Below are positions 3,233 through 17,348 of a stretch of DNA of 47,516 bases, piece after piece. This DNA comes from Candidatus Zixiibacteriota bacterium (GTDB lineage Bacteria > Zixibacteria > MSB-5A5 > GN15 > FEB-12). The stretch is taken from positions 2,033,345 through 2,080,860 of the forward strand of contig CP070756.1 in assembly GCA_020348905.1 (NCBI GenBank), in the 5' to 3' direction. Made by a program: the position numbers and the translations under genes. The stretch's first letter is position 1. Each line of letters opens with the position of its first letter. A model generated the notes under the pieces. It made no database searches. It was not told the DNA's origin and saw only the letters and a program-made list of their open reading frames with translations.

Positions 3233-3267
3233 TTGCGGCCTCCCGGGGATGTTCATATATTGAACAC
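3233..3267 (+). promoter_or_regulatory. Predicted promoter of tRNA-Sec
   Basis: TTGCGG (3233-3238), a 17-base spacer and TATATT (3256-3261). A start 7 bases after the -10 box falls on 3268, the first base of the mature tRNA. The -10 box lies inside the inverted repeat GTTCA-TATAT-TGAAC (3251-3265), which could be an operator. Seen in sequence; activity is inferred. Confidence 0.6.
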
Positions 3268-3364
3268 GGAAGCGGATGTCGTCTGGTGGCGATCCCGGCC
3301 TTCAAAGCCGTGCGGGGGGCAAAGATCTTGTCCCCGGTGGGTTCGATTCCCACCCCTTCCGCCA
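3268..3364 (+). tRNA. selC: tRNA-Sec (UCA anticodon)
   Basis: Selenocysteine tRNA that reads UGA through SelB. Recognised by GGAAG at the 5' end, a six-pair D stem closing a four-base loop (TGGT), an anticodon loop CTTCAAA with TCA at 3302-3304, a long variable arm of eight pairs including one G-U (3313-3320 region with TTGTCCCC), the TTCGATT loop, discriminator G and an encoded CCA (3362-3364). All of these are bacterial tRNA-Sec traits. The oddity is the acceptor arm: seven bases follow the T stem instead of eight and C3273 has no partner, so acceptor plus T stem gives 12 pairs instead of the usual 13. selA and selB lie 11 kb downstream. Confidence 0.93.
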
Positions 3365-7151: not shown

Positions 7152-10100
7152 TTGATAGTGAACTCTTTAGCGAAAAGAGCGTACATGGTCGCGGCGCTGG
7201 CAATCGTCGCGGCAGTTAGCCCCACCCGGGCAAATATCGGATTTCAGGCTGCTCTCGATACCCCACCTTCCCCCGTGTCCCCCTACGAGGATGAATATGC
7301 TCAGTTCTCTGTCGCCTTACTGCCTAAATCGAAGATATCTCTCCACAGTCGGTTGGTACGTACTCCCAAAGTTGTTCATTCGGAGTTTGCCGGTCGTTCT
7401 CTACGGCTCAATGTGAACTATTACTCCCATGGGAAAATCGAAAAAGCCATGGTGCCGGTGTCCGTTGATGCCGTGAGTTTTATGAATCGGCGGGTTGACA
7501 CTTTTGTCAAGCGGTCGTTTTCCGAGAACATGTACCTGCTGCTTCGGGATCCGGAGCGTCAGGAAAGCCGCGGATTGGGTATTTCAGTGGCCCTTCCCAA
7601 GCGCCTGAACAAGATCTTCGGTGAGGGTGGCGCCGGTCTGAAAGTCGCCGGATACAGGAAAATCACTTTCGCCGGTCGATCGCAGTGGACCGACCAGGCT
7701 GAATCGGAAACGTTCCGCCAGAATAAGTTCCCGTCTCTGAGAATGGAACAAATCTCGCGCTTTGACATAACCGGCACTATCGGTTCCAAGATTTCCGTCA
7801 AGGTTTCCCAGGACAGCCAGACCGATATCCCGCTGGCGAATCGAATCCAGATACGCTACAAAGGTGATGACGATGACATACTCAAGTCCATCGAGGCCGG
7901 TAACACCACTCTCTCCCTGCCCAATACTCAGTTTGTCGGGTACTCGTCACGTATTCGCGGTCTGTTCGGAGTGAAGGCTGAAGCCCAGATTGGTCGGCTT
8001 TACCTGACCGGAATTGCCTCACAGGAGAAAGGGTCGAGCGAAAAAGCTTCGTTTACGGCTACAGGCGAGGAGAATGCTGATTTTGTTCGCGACTATGAAT
8101 ACGTCCAGCGGATAATATTCGATCTCGGTAAGCCCGGTGAGTTCAGTCCCAACGATTCAGTCACAAAGCTCTTTGTATACGAATCCATATCAGGAGTTGT
8201 CCCTGATCTGGAGGCGGTGGAAGCCAATCTCTGGGTGGATCCTGACAGCCCGGAGGCTTACCCGAACGAGGATATAAAGGCCGATGGCCAGGTAAAAGTC
8301 AACCAGCTTGATGATAACGCCTATGAATTTTTCAACGATCCGTCGCGGAATCTCCACTACGTGCGCTTCACCCATCCACGGGACAAAACCAAGCATCTGG
8401 CCTGCTGGATGGAGATCAAGCGGGCCGATGGCACCTATGACACCGTTGGTAGCACAGCTTCCATACCTTATGACTTGAAGCTGCTCGCTATCGCGAGTGG
8501 CAAGAACCCCAGTCCTGACCAGGAAACCTGGCACTTGATGTGGCGAAACTGTTATTCGATTCCGGTCAATGTGGATATCTCGGACATCCGGGTGAAAATA
8601 TTCAAGGGGCCGCCCGGAACGGAAACGAATTCCGACAATCTGGACTATCAGAGTTCGGGTGGCCGGACTGCTCCATACATTGAGATACTCGGTCTGGACC
8701 GGTATAACGAATCGGAAATGAGGGACCCGGACGGCTTGCTCGATGATCTGCAGGAGGTTTTTCGCCCGGACTGGGGCTTGCTCATCTTTCCCGATCGTCG
8801 TCCGTTTGACTCGGATCAGATATTTACCGACCAGAACGGCATCGAGACACCGCCACTCGCCGTCAGACTGCCGGAGATCTATGACTTTACATCGCTGGGC
8901 GTTCCGGCCCAATCCAGTCAGTACTATCTTCAGTTAACGACCACGGCGCGGAGTTCTAAGATTAAGCTCGATCGTGCCAACATTATCGAGGGTTCCGAGA
9001 CTATCACGGTCAACGGTCGCCAACTCGCCCGGGGAACTGACTATACCATAAATTACGAATTTGGCCAGATTACCTTGCTCGATGATGAGGCCACCGATCC
9101 CAACGCCAGTCTTAGTATCGACTACGAGTATGCCCCGTTCTTTGCCGTTCAGAAGAAGACTCTCCTGGGCGCCAGGGCGGAATACGATTGGAGCGATGAC
9201 TTCAAGTTCGGATCCACGCTTCTGTACAAGTCTGACAAAACTCAGGAACGCAAACCCAAAGTGGGGCAGGAGACTGCTAAAACCATCGTTCTTGACGGTG
9301 ATATGAGCCTCAAGCTGCACCCCAACTTCCTGACGAGTATGGTCGACGCCATACCGTTCGTCGAGGCCGAGTCACCATCCAACATTTCTATTATCGCCGA
9401 GGTAGCTCAATCCCGTCCTAACCCCAATGTCGACGGGGTCGCATACGTAGATGACTTTGAATCGGCTCTGGAGGAATTATCCCTGGGGACAACGCGCACG
9501 CGGTGGAAACAATCCTCGACACCGGTGCCCATCCAGGATCTCGGTTTTCAGCGAACCAAGATGCTCTGGCATACGCCCAAAGAGCTGGTTCAGGTTCAGG
9601 AAGTGTACGACCGGGAGTCCGCCCAGGGCGAAGGTACCCTCAGAACGATGCGGATGATTTTCCGTCCCGATTCCAGCGGTGCCGATTCATGGGCCGGCGT
9701 CACAAGGTATTTCGGATCGGCCATCGACAGCAAGCGGGCACAGCTTTTTGAGGTTCGCCTGAGGGCCTACGATGATATCCAGGCCCTACTTCATTTCGAT
9801 TTTGGCATTATTAGCGAGGATCTTGATGATCAGCCGCAGCACGAAGGCACGGCTTTTACCGAGGACCTTGACAACAATGGTGCTGTCAGTATAGCTGAAG
9901 ACGTAGGTCTTGACGGAGTCGCCGACGGCGCGGGGGAAACACCCACGCCATGGGGTACCAGCTACGACCTCGCCGGTGATAACTGGTATTTCCAGGGTGA
10001 GGGTAAATGTCCCTTTGGGCCCGATGGATGCGGTGAAAACACCGACGCGGATACATCCATTTATTATTACGAGTTTTTGAACGGCACCGAGGGAAATATT

Positions 10101-13100
10101 CGGGATCCCTCGGTGGCCGGTGTACCCGACCGGGAAATCCTGTCCACAGGAATCAGCGGTCTGGAAACCAGCAATGCCTATTTTTCGTATGTTCTGGACC
10201 TGTCATCTGACGAGTTTCTGGTGCCCAACTCCGGAAAAAACGACTGGGTAACTTATCGAATACCTATCCGGGATTCGACTGTGCTGGACCAGGCGGTAAG
10301 CACGGGCCGGACTCCTGACTGGAACAATATCACCCATGTCAGGGTATGGTTCGAATCACGACCAGGACAGACCGAACACGATACGGTCGAGATCGCGGAT
10401 TGGTACTTCGTTCAGTCGAATTGGCAGGATTCGGTAATACTGGGACCTGACTCGGCCAGCAGTAACACCAAATTCGTCGTGGCTGAAATGAGTGACGACG
10501 AAAATCAGGATTTTACACCGCCTCCGGGGGTTGAGTCGTACCGCGATCCCACCACCAATGTTACCGAAGCTCAGCGAGCCCTGCTGATGCAATTCAGCAA
10601 TCTTCGGGCCGCTGACTCCTGCCTGGCGACCAAGGATTTGATCTCGGTGGATCGCTATTCGGGTTACCGCCGGATGGAGATGTTCGTATACGGTGCTTAT
10701 GAAAATGATAGCGACCAGGGTAAAATTCGCTTCTTCTTCCGACTCGGTCAGGATGCCCGGAACTATTATGAATATTATACCACCGTTTATCAAGGGTGGG
10801 ACGAGCGTAACTTCGTCAATGTTGACTTCAACGAGATCACCGGCCTGAAAGATGACGCCCAGAAGGCCTTGCTTACTGGTGGCAACGAGGTGAACTTTGA
10901 TGACGGTGAGCATTATCGTATATTTGGAAATCCCGACATAAACAAGGTGCGCTACTTTGCCGCCGGACTGATCAATACCGACAGCACCGATGGCACTGAA
11001 ATCAGCGGTCAGTTATGGCTGGATGAATTGCGCGTGACTGAAGTTAGACGCGATGTGGGTACAGCCGGGCGTATTCAGGTCGCGGGAAATCTGGCCGATC
11101 TGCTCAGCTATAATTTTGCGTTTGAGTCGCGGGATCCCTATTTCCGGGGTCTGTCCTCCTCAACGCGCGGCGGCTCAACCGACAACCTTGGCAGCGGGCA
11201 GACAAATACCAGCTACAATTACGGAGTTACCTTCAATGTTAATAAGTTCCTGCCGCGATCCTGGGGCGCCCAGCTACCGGTTTCGGTGCGGTACAGTAAG
11301 GCCACCCAGACGCCCCTGCTGCGAAACAACTCCGACGTGGTGCTGCCCGAGGAAACCAGGCGGGAGGAGCGTACTATCCGCGAATCCAAGAACATCAACG
11401 TTTCCAGTCGCTTCAATCGCAAGGGCAGAAATCCACTGTTTAACCTGCTGCTGAATCGCCTCAAGACCTCGGTGTCTTACGGACGAACCAATACCCAGTC
11501 GGTGACGGCTCCTTACAGTTTCGGTGAATCGTACAGTGTGCGATCAAGTTTTGACTTTTCTGTTAAGAGTCCTCCTTACGTGCCTATCTTCTCCTGGACC
11601 CGCTCGATTCCCGTTCTCAAGAAGCTCTCTGAGTCGCGGCTGGGGCTGTATCCTGAGAAATGGACGACATCGGGCAATTTCAACCGTAGCCTGACCATTA
11701 CTGATGACATCAACTCAAACAGGCGATCGTCCAACAAGCGAACCTTTGACGGCAAGATGGACATGAAATATAAGTTCTTTCACAATTTGTCCATAACTCT
11801 CAGTTATCAGACCAATCGCGATCTGAGCGACCCCGACCTGGTCAATTTGTCGTTCAAAAACCCCAAACTGGGCCTCGAGACTCATTACGGGCAAAGCATA
11901 AGTACCAGCTATGATCCGAAACTTCTGAGTTTTATGAAAACGGCGTTTTCATATAAGGCGAATTACTCCGATGACTGGCAGCGTCAGTACCGCGCCCGCA
12001 AGTCGGCCATGTCCCGCTCGGTGGGCGTGAGCGGTGATTTTGACCACCAGAAACTTCTGGGAGAGACGCGAAAGAAGGCCAGTGGTCGCCGGACTTCGGG
12101 GCGCGACCGTGAGAGGCGGGCGGCTGACGAGGAGAGTTTCCCGGTGTACCAGTACGGCCTGAACGCACTGCGGTTTCTGACAGGATGGATTGATCCGTTT
12201 ACGTACTCCTACAGCGAGAGCTTCAATAATTCATTGCCGGGTATGGATGTCCGCCCGAGCTGGCAATACCGGTTCGGCTTTAAAGATAACGCCGATGTAG
12301 GCGAAGTTACCGGTGCGGTAGGATCCCAGGCTTCATCTGAAGGCATTCGATATGATGTCGGATCGGGTTTCAAATTCCTCGGCGGTTTAATCACTACGGT
12401 GCGGTTTGGTCGATCGGTGAATAGAGATCTGGTCAAGCAGGGTGCCCGCTATGAGAATATCTCCACAAACTGGCCTGACCTGGCGCTTAGAATTCAGAAA
12501 TTCAAGACCTTTCCGCTGATCAAGAAATATCTGAATACGTTTATCGATGTTTTTGCTCCGCGCACGGGCTTCAAACGGCAATTAAGAGAAAGGCGTGATA
12601 TCGACGGGGACTTTCTTGTTTCGAAGTCGGTGGTCAGAAATCACAAGCCTCTGCTGTCAATAAGTTTCAAAGCTATCAGGATGTTGTCGTTGTCCGCGGC
12701 CTATTCATTGGATAAGGAGGAAAAGGAAGTCTACAACACCGCTTCGGGAGACCTGCAGAGCGAAACCGTCTCTACGAAAAAAACTATTGCGGTAACGGCA
12801 AAATATTCGTTCAGTTCCCCGCGCGGAATTGCTTTGCCGATATTCGGCCGGCTGAAGTTTGACTCGCGTGTTGAACTGGAGATGTCGGTCCGCATAAACT
12901 CTCAAATTTCCGAAACGGCCCAGGCCGGACAACCTTTCGCTACCTCGACCGACAAATCCGACTACATGTTCTCGCCGGTCATTTCCTACGCATTCAGCAG
13001 ACAGATTAAGGGTGGTCTGACCATGCGCTGGCAGGACTCCAACGACAACTATCGTAGCCGTAAGAGCCATACCAGGGAAGTCCAGATCTGGACTGAGATC

Positions 13101-13109
13101 AGCTTCTGA
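7152..13109 (+). CDS. sprA: SprA-like giant outer-membrane protein (type IX secretion translocon family)
   Basis: Protein of 1985 residues. In Bacteroidetes, SprA (Sov) is the 36-strand outer-membrane channel of the type IX secretion system. A hydrophobic N-terminus (residues 10-26, ending near TRA) is a signal peptide. Family blocks are visible: an N-terminal part with KSIEAGNTTLSLPNTQF and SSRIRGLFGVKAEAQIGRL (about 255-285), the middle block AEVAQSRPNPNVDGVAYVDD (about 755-775), LWLDELRVTEVRRDVGTAG (about 1290), and a C-terminal half of alternating polar/aromatic strands. It is shorter than the Flavobacterium protein (roughly 2400). The chosen start is TTG; a GTG six bases later is also possible. 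Other type IX genes are not in the window, so the secretion role is inferred. Confidence 0.88.
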   Translation: MIVNSLAKRAYMVAALAIVAAVSPTRANIGFQAALDTPPSPVSPYEDEYAQFSVALLPKSKISLHSRLVRTPKVVHSEFAGRSLRLNVNYYSHGKIEKAMVPVSVDAVSFMNRRVDTFVKRSFSENMYLLLRDPERQESRGLGISVALPKRLNKIFGEGGAGLKVAGYRKITFAGRSQWTDQAESETFRQNKFPSLRMEQISRFDITGTIGSKISVKVSQDSQTDIPLANRIQIRYKGDDDDILKSIEAGNTTLSLPNTQFVGYSSRIRGLFGVKAEAQIGRLYLTGIASQEKGSSEKASFTATGEENADFVRDYEYVQRIIFDLGKPGEFSPNDSVTKLFVYESISGVVPDLEAVEANLWVDPDSPEAYPNEDIKADGQVKVNQLDDNAYEFFNDPSRNLHYVRFTHPRDKTKHLACWMEIKRADGTYDTVGSTASIPYDLKLLAIASGKNPSPDQETWHLMWRNCYSIPVNVDISDIRVKIFKGPPGTETNSDNLDYQSSGGRTAPYIEILGLDRYNESEMRDPDGLLDDLQEVFRPDWGLLIFPDRRPFDSDQIFTDQNGIETPPLAVRLPEIYDFTSLGVPAQSSQYYLQLTTTARSSKIKLDRANIIEGSETITVNGRQLARGTDYTINYEFGQITLLDDEATDPNASLSIDYEYAPFFAVQKKTLLGARAEYDWSDDFKFGSTLLYKSDKTQERKPKVGQETAKTIVLDGDMSLKLHPNFLTSMVDAIPFVEAESPSNISIIAEVAQSRPNPNVDGVAYVDDFESALEELSLGTTRTRWKQSSTPVPIQDLGFQRTKMLWHTPKELVQVQEVYDRESAQGEGTLRTMRMIFRPDSSGADSWAGVTRYFGSAIDSKRAQLFEVRLRAYDDIQALLHFDFGIISEDLDDQPQHEGTAFTEDLDNNGAVSIAEDVGLDGVADGAGETPTPWGTSYDLAGDNWYFQGEGKCPFGPDGCGENTDADTSIYYYEFLNGTEGNIRDPSVAGVPDREILSTGISGLETSNAYFSYVLDLSSDEFLVPNSGKNDWVTYRIPIRDSTVLDQAVSTGRTPDWNNITHVRVWFESRPGQTEHDTVEIADWYFVQSNWQDSVILGPDSASSNTKFVVAEMSDDENQDFTPPPGVESYRDPTTNVTEAQRALLMQFSNLRAADSCLATKDLISVDRYSGYRRMEMFVYGAYENDSDQGKIRFFFRLGQDARNYYEYYTTVYQGWDERNFVNVDFNEITGLKDDAQKALLTGGNEVNFDDGEHYRIFGNPDINKVRYFAAGLINTDSTDGTEISGQLWLDELRVTEVRRDVGTAGRIQVAGNLADLLSYNFAFESRDPYFRGLSSSTRGGSTDNLGSGQTNTSYNYGVTFNVNKFLPRSWGAQLPVSVRYSKATQTPLLRNNSDVVLPEETRREERTIRESKNINVSSRFNRKGRNPLFNLLLNRLKTSVSYGRTNTQSVTAPYSFGESYSVRSSFDFSVKSPPYVPIFSWTRSIPVLKKLSESRLGLYPEKWTTSGNFNRSLTITDDINSNRRSSNKRTFDGKMDMKYKFFHNLSITLSYQTNRDLSDPDLVNLSFKNPKLGLETHYGQSISTSYDPKLLSFMKTAFSYKANYSDDWQRQYRARKSAMSRSVGVSGDFDHQKLLGETRKKASGRRTSGRDRERRAADEESFPVYQYGLNALRFLTGWIDPFTYSYSESFNNSLPGMDVRPSWQYRFGFKDNADVGEVTGAVGSQASSEGIRYDVGSGFKFLGGLITTVRFGRSVNRDLVKQGARYENISTNWPDLALRIQKFKTFPLIKKYLNTFIDVFAPRTGFKRQLRERRDIDGDFLVSKSVVRNHKPLLSISFKAIRMLSLSAAYSLDKEEKEVYNTASGDLQSETVSTKKTIAVTAKYSFSSPRGIALPIFGRLKFDSRVELEMSVRINSQISETAQAGQPFATSTDKSDYMFSPVISYAFSRQIKGGLTMRWQDSNDNYRSRKSHTREVQIWTEISF

Positions 13110-13153: not shown

Positions 13154-14080
13154 ATGACTTTTTCACCTCTGGCAGCGACCATTGTCTGTGGTGTTTTAAT
13201 CTGTTTATCGTGTTCATCGCCTCGCATTCAACCGCCCGAATTTGATGGCGACCGCGCTTACGATTACCTTGTAAAGCAGGTGGAATTCGGACCGCGCGTT
13301 CCCAGTACCGAGGCCTCGGCGCAGTGCCGCCGGTATATGTGCGAGCATTTCAGCCAGCTTGGCCTTGAAGTGGACTCGCAGGTCTTTAACCATGACGATT
13401 CATATTCACGCAGCACGATTGTCATGGTAAATGTGGTGGCGTCGGCTTGGGGCGAAAGCGATGCCGCGTTGGTGCTGATGGCTCACTACGATTGTCGCCC
13501 CAGAGCCGAATACGCCAGCATCCCTGAGCTCATGGAAAAACCGATTGACGGTGCTAATGACGGTGCCTCGGGGGTGGCCGTCCTGATGGAGATGGCGAAT
13601 CTGTTCGCCGCTCGCAAGCCGCCCTGTCGGGTCGATTTGGTTTTGGTTGACGGAGAGGATTGGGGCGTGACCGGCGACCGCGAGAACTACATGCTTGGCT
13701 CCAGAGAGTTTGCTCGAAGGGGGATCCGTGACAGGTATCGGTTTGGAATTGTGGTTGACCTGGTCGGAGACAGCGATCAGCAGATTTACCGGGAGGCGTT
13801 TTCCGAGCGATATGCCAAGCCCTTGAACGACGTAATCTTTGAAACCGCTGCTCGCCTGGGAATAAATACCTTCTACGACTCGGTCAAGCACCCGGTTCTC
13901 GATGATCATATCTCGCTCAATATCGGCGGTGTTTTGGCTGCTGATATCATTGACTTCGATTACGCATATTGGCATACTGAGTTGGATACGCCGGACAAGT
14001 GTAGCGGCGAGTCTCTGGCTAACGTCGGTAGAGTGCTGGCGGAAATTGTTTATAATCCACACTTATGGCCGGAAAAGTAA
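13154..14080 (+). CDS. M28-family lipoprotein, glutaminyl-peptide cyclotransferase-like
   Basis: Zinc enzyme of the M28 fold, probably converting N-terminal Gln to pyroglutamate on exported proteins; a plain aminopeptidase is the alternative. The N-terminus is a lipoprotein signal with lipobox LSC about 20 residues from the ATG, so it is anchored in the envelope. Metal and active-site blocks: AHYDCRP, GANDGASG, DGEDWG, LGSREFARR, VDLVGD, DDHI and YWHTELDTPDKC. The order and the LGSR, DLVG, DDHI and WHT motifs follow glutaminyl cyclases. I start at the ATG because it begins a compact signal peptide and a TTGACT box lies 35 bases upstream; a TTG at 13124 would add ten residues. The end overlaps selA by 16 bases. 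Confidence 0.82.
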   Translation: MTFSPLAATIVCGVLICLSCSSPRIQPPEFDGDRAYDYLVKQVEFGPRVPSTEASAQCRRYMCEHFSQLGLEVDSQVFNHDDSYSRSTIVMVNVVASAWGESDAALVLMAHYDCRPRAEYASIPELMEKPIDGANDGASGVAVLMEMANLFAARKPPCRVDLVLVDGEDWGVTGDRENYMLGSREFARRGIRDRYRFGIVVDLVGDSDQQIYREAFSERYAKPLNDVIFETAARLGINTFYDSVKHPVLDDHISLNIGGVLAADIIDFDYAYWHTELDTPDKCSGESLANVGRVLAEIVYNPHLWPEK

Positions 14081-15447
14081 TTAAACAACTCCGTGACTTC
14101 CCTTCCGTGGAAGAGCTGCTTCAGAGCGGCAAGCTGGTTGGGGCGGTGTCGTCCGTGCCCAGGCCGGTGGCGGCCGATGTCGTGAAGGAAGTCGTAGCTG
14201 ACGTCAAAAGCGAGTTTAAACGGAGGGGTGCAGCCATAAGCCTGACTGAAATTCATAACAAGATTAGAGATCGGATCAGGAGCTATCGTCGTCGTGAAAT
14301 CTCCAGGGTCATTAACGCCACCGGGATCGTGGTGCACACTAACCTGGGCAGGGCGCCGCTGTCGGAGAGCATTTTCGACGCCGTGAAGACAACGGTGGTG
14401 GGGTATGGCAACATAGAGTACGATCTTCAGTCGGGATCCAGGGGAAAACGAGGGCCATCCTGTGAGGCTTACCTGGCGCGGCTGTCCGGGGCCGAAAACG
14501 CCACCGTCGTCAACAACTGCGCCGCTGCTCTGCTGATCATTCTCAATACCTTTGCCAACAGGAAGAAAGTTATCATATCGCGCGGTGAGCTGGTGCAAAT
14601 TGGTGGCGGCTTCAGGATACCCGATATCCTCAAGAAATCCGGCGCCAGGCTGTGCGAGGTTGGGACTACCAATATAACTAACCTGTCTGATTACGCTGAC
14701 GCCATTGACGACAAAACGGCTCTTATCCTGCGTGTTCATCAGAGTAATTTCATTCAGCGCGGGTTTACCGATCAGGTCAAGCTCAAGCCGCTCGTTGCCC
14801 TGGGTCGTAAACACGGTGTACCGGTGGTCAACGATCTGGGCAGCGGGGTGTTTGTATCAACTCGGAAGCTGCTGGGCTACAACGAACCGACCGTGCAGCA
14901 GTCCGTTCGCGACGGAGCCGACCTCACCTGTTTCTCCGGTGACAAAATGCTGGGGGGCTGCCAGGCCGGTCTGATTGTCGGAAGCGACGAACACATAAAG
15001 AAGATCCGTAAAAACGCCCTGTTCAGAACCCTCAGGGTGGACAAGATCGTCTTTTCGATGCTGGAAAAAATGCTGGCCTTTTATCTCAACGACGACTGGA
15101 TGACCAATATCAAAGTCTGGTCGATTCTGTCTTTGAGCGAGTCCGAACTCTATCGTCGCGGCAAGGACTTGCTTAAAAAGCTCGGTAATCCCAGGGGCAT
15201 CTCGGTAGAGGCTACCGGAGCTTATGTGGGTGGGGGAGCGCTGCCGGAGTCGAGTATACCTTCGGTTTCCATCGTCTTTTCGCCCCAGTTCAACGCCACC
15301 ACTCTGCTCAAGAAATTCCGCGACATGCCGGTTCCCATAATCGGCCGAATTGATGATGATCGTCTCATCCTCGACCTCAAGGCCGTCGATGAAACCGATC
15401 TGCCGTATCTGACGGATGCTATATCCAGCGTACTTGACGAAGCTTAG
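14065..15447 (+). CDS. selA: SelA, L-seryl-tRNA(Sec) selenium transferase
   Basis: PLP enzyme that turns Ser-tRNA(Sec) into Sec-tRNA(Sec) using selenophosphate. At 460 residues it has the normal bacterial length. An N-terminal helical tRNA-binding domain precedes the conserved [41 protein letters not shown] and HQSNF follow. The PLP lysine is Lys294 in [12 protein letters not shown], where many relatives have Pro in place of the Cys. The start lies inside the end of the M28 gene. selB follows after 11 bases, so the two form an operon. selD, the selenophosphate synthetase, is not in this window. Confidence 0.96.
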
Positions 15448-15458
15448 GTGACCGGTAA

Positions 15459-17348
15459 ATGATTGTAATCGGAACGGCAGGACATATCGACCATGGCAAA
15501 TCATCCATCGTCAAAAGGCTTACCGGAACCGACCCGGATCGCCTGCCCGAGGAAAAGAAGCGGGGTCTGACCATCGATCTGGGATTTGCCTTTTACCAAA
15601 CACCTGAGGCAGATGTCATCGCCTTTGTTGATGTACCGGGCCATGAGAAGTTTGTCAAGAACATGGTGGCCGGTGCCGGGGGTATCGACGCCGTTATGCT
15701 GGTGGTGGCGGCCGACGACGGCTGGATGCCGCAGAGCGAAGAGCACTTTCAAATAGTGAGGTTGCTCGGCGTCAGGCACGGTATGGTTGTTATCAACAAG
15801 ACCGACCTGGTTGAACCCGACTGGCTGGAACTGCTTGAGCAGGAAATTTCTGATAAAACCGCCGGCACCTTTTTGCAGGAAGCCCCGGTCTTCAAAGTTT
15901 CATCTCAGACCGGCGAGGGTTTTGACCGGCTCAGTGCCCATCTCGATTCGCTGACATCCAACATCACGGCCAGGCGAGATATCGGCAAAGCTCGCCTCTA
16001 CATCGATCGCTCCTTCGTTCGACCTGGTATCGGCGGTGTCGTTACGGGCACGCTTCGAGGCGGCAGGCTAACGGTGGGTCAGAGCGTAGCGGTGTGGCCG
16101 TCCATGAAGAAAGCTAAAATCCGGTCGTTGCATTCGAATAATCAGGAAGTGAAAACGGCCGGACCGGGACAGCGCACGGCGGTATCATTTACCGGACTGG
16201 ACCGCGAGAATCTTATTCGGGGCGGGGTAGTTTCAGGCAGGGAAGACCTTGCGTTTTTCAAACAGCATCCGGTACTGGCGCTGTCGGTGGAGGTTCTGCC
16301 GGATGCTCCGGTGGCCCTTACGGAACGTCGCCGCGTGCTGTTGATCGCAGGTACAACCGAGGCCGAAGGGGAGATAAGACTGTACGATACCCGGCGAATA
16401 GAAGCGGGCCAAAAGGGATTGGCCTTTTTCAAACCGGACGAGCCGGTGTATACCCTGGTAGGTGATCACTTCATACTTCGGCTACCGACACCGATGGTCA
16501 CTATGGGCGGCGGGCAGGTACTGGACCACCTGCAACACTTCCCGCGCAAGAAGAGGCTTGAAGACTACGCTTATCTCAAGGACAGGGTACCGGCGACACT
16601 TCGCAATCTGGTTCTGTCCGAGCTGCGCAAACAAATAATCATTCCGGCCGATTCGCTTCTGGATCAGTCCGACTTTTCGCGAGAGCAAATTGAATCGGAA
16701 ATCAAACAAGTCTGGCAGGCCAAGAAGGTCAGGATCTTCGAAGGTAGCGTGTATCACGAGCAATACTTCAAACAGGCCCTGGATAGCCTTCAGCAAATTC
16801 TCGGGAAGTACTTCCAGGACAAATCGCATGTCAAGGGAATCTCCCTGGAGCAGATCGTTGATATAGCGGGCCTGAGCCAGTCTCAGGCAAGTCTCATGGT
16901 TGGCTTTCTCGTATCTTCCGGTGCCATGATCAAGATTCGGGAGCTGTATAACCTTAGTGGCCGGGGGATGAGCCTGAAAGGACCCGCGAAGCTGGCCCAC
17001 GATGATATTATGAAATCGCTTACCGATAATCGCTATTCGCCTCCAACTCTGACCGTCCTGGTTGGTCGCGGTAAGGCCTACAAGGACGCCATAAAATTCG
17101 TAGTTGATGCAGGCGAGGGTTACAAATGCGGTTCGGATTTTGTTTTCCTGACCGATGTTTGGGATGAAATCGTGGAGTACGTCACGAAAAAGATAAAGAC
17201 CGAAGGCAAACTCACCGTGGCGGACTTACGCGACCGGTTCGGTTTCTCGCGCAAGTTCGGCATCCCGATCCTGGAAGAGACCGATCGAATCAGGCTTACC
17301 CGCCGGGAAGGAGATTATCGGGTGAAAGGAGACAAGTTTGAAGGCTAA
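15459..17348 (+). CDS. selB: SelB, selenocysteine-specific elongation factor
   Basis: GTPase that carries Sec-tRNA(Sec) to UGA codons marked by a SECIS hairpin. The GTP-binding domain has GHIDHGKS (residues 7-14), [20 protein letters not shown] and NKTDL, followed by EF-Tu-like domains II and III. The C-terminal third (from about residue 370) is helical and built of winged-helix repeats, the part that binds the SECIS element. At 629 residues it is similar to E. coli SelB (614). AGGTGA lies just before the ATG. Its last codons overlap the start of the amidohydrolase gene by 11 bases. Confidence 0.96.

Follow-up and report, generated by a model that had tools for sequence, protein, structure and literature searches.

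The stretch of DNA analyzed here, referred to as the window, comprises 47,516 nucleotides from the genome of a Candidatus Zixiibacteriota bacterium. Its sole tRNA gene was identified by ARAGORN as tRNA-Sec with a TCA anticodon (3268-3364, forward strand). This gene, selC, is adjoined by recG, and selA and selB are encountered about 11 kb downstream. The features of the locus, all on the forward strand, are as follows:

3233-3238, forward: candidate -35 box with the sequence TTGCGG, separated from the -10 box by 17 bases; weak when taken alone, with a position that is conserved across the phylum
3256-3261, forward: candidate -10 box, TATATT, 6 bases before G3268; position conserved in the phylum
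3268-3364, forward: tRNA-Sec gene (selC), from ARAGORN and Rfam RF01852 (68.4 bits)
3268-3275, forward: 5' strand of the acceptor stem, GGAAG-C-GG, with seven paired bases and one bulge, from the sequence, the pairs in the phylum and the fold energy
3273, forward: bulged base C at position 5a (after pair 5), from comparison across the phylum
3302-3304, forward: UCA anticodon, within the tRNA-Sec gene
3315-3335, forward: long variable arm, from the fold
3337-3353, forward: T arm of five pairs (3337-3341 with 3349-3353) and a 7-base loop, its pairs standard in 105 of 105 genes of the phylum
3354-3360, forward: 3' strand of the acceptor stem, seven bases long against eight in the E. coli tRNA-Sec, from the sequence and comparison across the phylum
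3361, forward: discriminator G73, from the sequence
3362-3364, forward: encoded CCA, from the sequence
14065-15447, forward: selA, selenocysteine synthase (TIGR00474, 516 bits; PF03841)
15459-17348, forward: selB, selenocysteine elongation factor (TIGR00475, 330 bits; PDB 5lzb, E 7e-65)

A very long ORF also occupies positions 7152-13109 of the window, and its first part matches SprA, the outer-membrane translocon of the T9SS (TIGR04189).

By virtue of its UCA anticodon, long variable arm, 6-pair D stem and G73, the gene has the traits of a tRNA-Sec, as the original prediction had stated. The covariance-model check proposed there gives an RF01852 match at 3268-3360 that lies well above the curated cut-off of 47 bits. 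In place of a 13-pair (8/5) acceptor and T arm, however, the gene has 12 pairs and a bulge. Only 12 nucleotides, not 13, separate the T loop from the discriminator G, and C3273 has no partner; the RF01852 alignment correspondingly has a gap of one base on each strand, close to where the acceptor and T stems meet. The shortened arm and the unpaired C had both been read from the sequence originally, and both readings hold. In the anticodon stem of this one copy, the same alignment places a U after CCG that is either a mismatch or a bulge.

To place the window gene among its relatives, RF01852 was searched against 132 Zixibacteria genomes, of which 105 gave a match over the cut-off. The best gene of each of these genomes was parsed with a parser that admitted 3' arms of 12 to 14 nucleotides, and the arm proved to be 12 nucleotides long in every one of the 105. 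A pattern search points the same way, in that a 13-nucleotide arm was found in none of the 132 genomes while the same pattern with 12 was found in 101. The four genes missed by the shorter pattern (G064, G074, G103 and G120) differ elsewhere and also have an arm of 12. Comparison with relatives, which the original prediction had called for, thus turned up the same missing base throughout and no perfect 8/5 arm. At a threshold of E 1e-9, 27 of the 132 genomes have no RF01852 match; three of them (G005, G043 and G044) nevertheless show a selD with an in-frame TGA, and are either incomplete assemblies or cases of loss. One parsed gene, in genome G103 (C8:27559-27650, L142), has a damaged acceptor 5' strand that reads TGTAG for GGAAG and may be a pseudogene or an assembly fault. 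Outside the phylum, nine of ten proteobacterial genes have the 13-nucleotide arm. The tenth, an alphaproteobacterial tRNA-Sec on a plasmid of Roseomonas gilardii (L260), likewise has 12.

A 12-pair arm is not without precedent. Santesmasses et al. (2017, PMC5330540) report an AT-stem of 12 bp in 47 tRNA-Sec from bacteria; in most of these, an acceptor nucleotide at position 3a, 4a or 5a is bulged. All 105 Zixibacteria genes have seven 3' bases and a bulge at 5a, and share with the published type the seven residues from the T stem to G73 and the accompanying Sec machinery genes. Also common in the published set is a bulged nucleotide, 43a, in the anticodon stem (PMC5330540). There are differences as well. 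The lineages named in that paper are Gammaproteobacteria, Clostridiales, Spirochaetes, two Alphaproteobacteria, Rubrobacter and Dehalogenimonas, without Zixibacteria among them. Not all genes of those lineages carry the fold, whereas all 105 of the Zixibacteria do, and the selC of the window does not form one operon with selA and selB. In the epsilonproteobacteria, which are another phylum, covariation in 21 genes likewise favored 7/5 over 8/5 (PMC4607533), and that arrangement has been described as 12 bp with one bulged nucleotide (PMC5330540). The Cloacimonetes-type 7/5 tRNA-Sec also has a 12-pair arm but lacks the linker base between the acceptor and D stems, whereas in Zixibacteria the linker is complete and one base is bulged (PMC5330540). 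Compared with E. coli selC, the window gene belongs to the same tRNA family and begins with the same 5' GGAAG but differs in the 3' arm, which has 13 nucleotides in E. coli. Since exceptions are already in print (PMC5330540), the 13-pair arm is better regarded as a variant trait than as a requirement. The 12-pair arm is therefore of an already published kind, found here in a new phylum, and what is new is its fixation, bulge included, across a phylum. The retrieved passages that deal with Zixibacteria and selenocysteine contain no discussion of a zixibacterial tRNA-Sec.

The original prediction left two arrangements of the arm open, a bulge, or a C-C mismatch combined with a 4-pair T stem; the former is borne out and the latter is not. 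When the 7/5 fold is drawn with its bulge after the fifth pair, every one of its 12 pairs is standard in at least 104 of the 105 genes. Exceptions occur in G103 alone, at pairs 1 and 3; this gene has a 5' end that appears broken. Compensating changes are seen in the T stem at pair 50-64 (TA 88, AT 8, GC 5, CG 4) and also at 51-63 and 52-62. The alternative, with eight acceptor pairs and a 4-pair T stem like the minor 8/4 tRNA-Sec mentioned in PMC7609411, uses the same number of bases. Its C-C mismatch could stack within the helix, and its pairs 7-66 and 8-65 would be standard too, as counted from the letters of the phylum genes. Its pair 6-67, however, is never standard (CC 50, AC 44, TC 11), and it would leave G49 unpaired even though position 49 is G in all 105 genes, opposite C65 or U65. 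When an identical middle part was imposed on both folds, the bulged 7/5 was the more stable in 105 of 105 genes, by 2.6 to 4.6 kcal/mol with a mean of 3.4. An unconstrained minimum-energy fold of the window copy gave a slipped acceptor register and no cloverleaf. Altogether, the 8/4 arrangement is improbable.

The identity of the bulged base offers a further view of the 7/5 fold. Of the 105 genes, 50 have C at this position, 44 have A and 11 have U; none has G. Mapped on the taxonomy, the base has changed 27 times on a strict count, while the most lenient one gives at least 10 changes, and never to G. A G at this position would produce a perfect 8/4 helix, yet it is never found. Since only G could pair with C67 and thereby shift the register, we read its absence as selection for an unpaired base; the bulge may thus be selected to stay unpaired, although the related sequences are not independent of one another. 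The exclusion of G from the bulge is new.

The machinery for selenocysteine insertion appears to be in place. As had been claimed for the pair, the TIGR00474, PF03841, TIGR00475 and 5lzb matches show both SelA and SelB to be unremarkable representatives of their families. The homology of SelB to the E. coli selenocysteine-specific elongation factor, whose structure is solved (5lzb), covers the first domains and the final winged helix. Among 21 genomes, comprising that of the window and 20 relatives, selD was found over the cut-off in 20; in 19 of these, the best match contains a single in-frame TGA. In a genome of the same genus (G003), SelD reads SCAGUAAKLAPKFL, where U is an in-frame UGA at what is presumably the usual Sec site of SelD. 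The selD of the window's own genome is only partly readable, since its match begins at profile position 82 and the stretch reads N, and the UGA evidence is therefore that of relatives. No formate dehydrogenase was found over the cut-off in the 21 genomes, and among its matches only those in G005 and G012 have an in-frame TGA; this enzyme is left out of the selenoprotein evidence. With selA and selB nearby and UGA codons in the SelD of relatives, the tRNA-Sec system is probably functional, in line with the earlier expectation for this RNA.

Within such a system, the seven acceptor and five T-stem pairs would stack into a 12-pair helix, to which the bulged base at 5a may add an extra layer or a kink on the 5' strand. 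SerRS would use G73 and the long variable arm to charge the tRNA, the attached Ser would be converted to Sec by SelA, and SelB would then bind the Sec-tRNA and deliver it to UGA codons. The usual view is that a length of 13 pairs lets bacterial SelB recognize tRNA-Sec and causes EF-Tu to reject it. For E. coli, the determinant that favors SelB and disfavors EF-Tu is reported to be the longer acceptor stem (PMC7609411), and for this reason a 12-pair arm could bind less well. SelB may nevertheless tolerate the shorter arm, as the original prediction suggested; one possibility is that the bulge compensates for the missing pair in the length test made by SelB. Since all tRNA-Sec detected in the phylum combine 12 pairs with a bulge from which G is absent, length alone does not seem to be the rule, and the C, A and U bulges form a natural series for binding tests.

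Two further explanations for the short arm deserve mention. The gene could be a decayed or repurposed relative of tRNA-Sec that has ceased to serve selenocysteine, a reading for which the shortening itself and the broken 5' strand of G103 might speak. Against this stand the near-perfect conservation with its compensatory changes, the UCA anticodon and G73, the intact selA and selB, and the in-frame UGA in the SelD of relatives, which together make decay very unlikely. Least credible is the loss of one base from an ordinary 8/5 tRNA-Sec through a sequencing or assembly error; indels are conceivable in the window's assembly, a single contig of 80.65% estimated completeness, but such an error is excluded by the identical arm in all 105 genes of the phylum and the lack of any 13-nucleotide pattern, and the same arm recurs in 65 named contigs, mostly labeled Zixibacteria, Zixiibacteriota or GN15, that overlap the 105-gene set. 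With high confidence, then, the window encodes a functioning tRNA-Sec that belongs to the known 12-pair (7/5) type and has a single bulged base in its acceptor stem.

Conservation in the phylum extends upstream of the gene. Counted back from G1 in the 105 genes, the conserved columns are T at -12 (88), A at -11 (86), T at -10 (86) and T at -7 (82), followed further out by T at -35 and at -34 (76 each), with almost nothing conserved between the two boxes. The motif TANNNT stands exactly at -12 to -7 in 74 of the 105 genes, where about 3.4 would be expected from composition, and in all 43 genes of the window's family. A -35-like TTG, TTTAC or TTTGC lies at the right distance in 68 of those 74, while five shifted positions give only 5 to 11. 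A pyrimidine (C or T) precedes G1 in 101 of the 105. The exact spacing is absent from 31 genes, among them the entire families f2, f3, f5, f8 and f11-f14, and in some of the 31 the box is found a few bases further upstream.

For comparison, other tRNA genes were collected as controls, 25 from the genome of the window and 42 from eight relatives. The loci from the relatives were their best-scoring tRNAs, and some lie in clusters. From 76 genes found, removal of duplicates and of those with short upstream sequence left 69, and two with N upstream were then dropped to give 67. A -10 box at the same position was present in 2 of the 67 after correction of the 5' ends, or 1 of 67 before it. In the nine genomes that supplied the controls, selC has the box in eight (Fisher p 2e-8, with the reservation that tRNAs sharing a genome are partly dependent on one another). 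None of ten proteobacterial selC genes, E. coli selC included, has TANNNT at -12. The case for a promoter is a comparative one, because a generic single-sequence promoter scan of the window returned no match.

A promoter whose position is locked to the tRNA points to G1 as the probable start site, and a transcript that begins at G1 would have no 5' leader to remove. RNase P measures the stack of the acceptor and T stems, and eukaryotic tRNA-Sec is said to bypass the enzyme. With this background in mind, we consider it an even call whether a sigma-70-type promoter starts the tRNA-Sec of Zixibacteria at G1, so that the RNA would be leaderless and RNase P bypassed; the 12-pair bulged helix would be a reason for such an arrangement. 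The cause is unlikely to be a loss of RNase P, since the genome of the window contains a match to RNase P RNA, at 95.8 bits just below the cut-off of 100. The closest parallel is in Nanoarchaeum equitans, where tRNAs are likewise leaderless and transcription begins at the mature 5' end (PMC10941002). That organism is an archaeon without RNase P, while the present case concerns a single tRNA of bacteria in which an RNase P RNA-like match is still present. No published report of a leaderless bacterial tRNA-Sec was found in a literature search with most subscription journals outside its reach. An apparently leaderless selC, with its start site placed by promoter position, would be new. If the promoter reading is true, this would also be a case of a tRNA in bacteria dispensing with 5' processing while the enzyme, RNase P, is apparently present.

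The 3' ends of the genes show a pattern of their own. Among genes without an encoded CCA, 40 of 69 enter a TTTT within eight bases of the discriminator, compared with 4 of 36 genes with CCA when the eight bases are counted after the CCA. Since a T run often comes straight after the CCA-less genes, transcription of some selC genes may end directly after the acceptor stem.

A second tRNA-Sec-like gene was observed in one genome of the survey (G096, L256 3355-3446, reverse strand). It matches RF01852 with 56.3 bits, was not called by ARAGORN, and has a GCA anticodon and, by eye, an 8-pair acceptor stem (AAGGCUGG) and U73. It resembles a selC*-type tRNA-Cys, and it sits between ORFs that by eye are TonB-type receptor-like and BioY-like.
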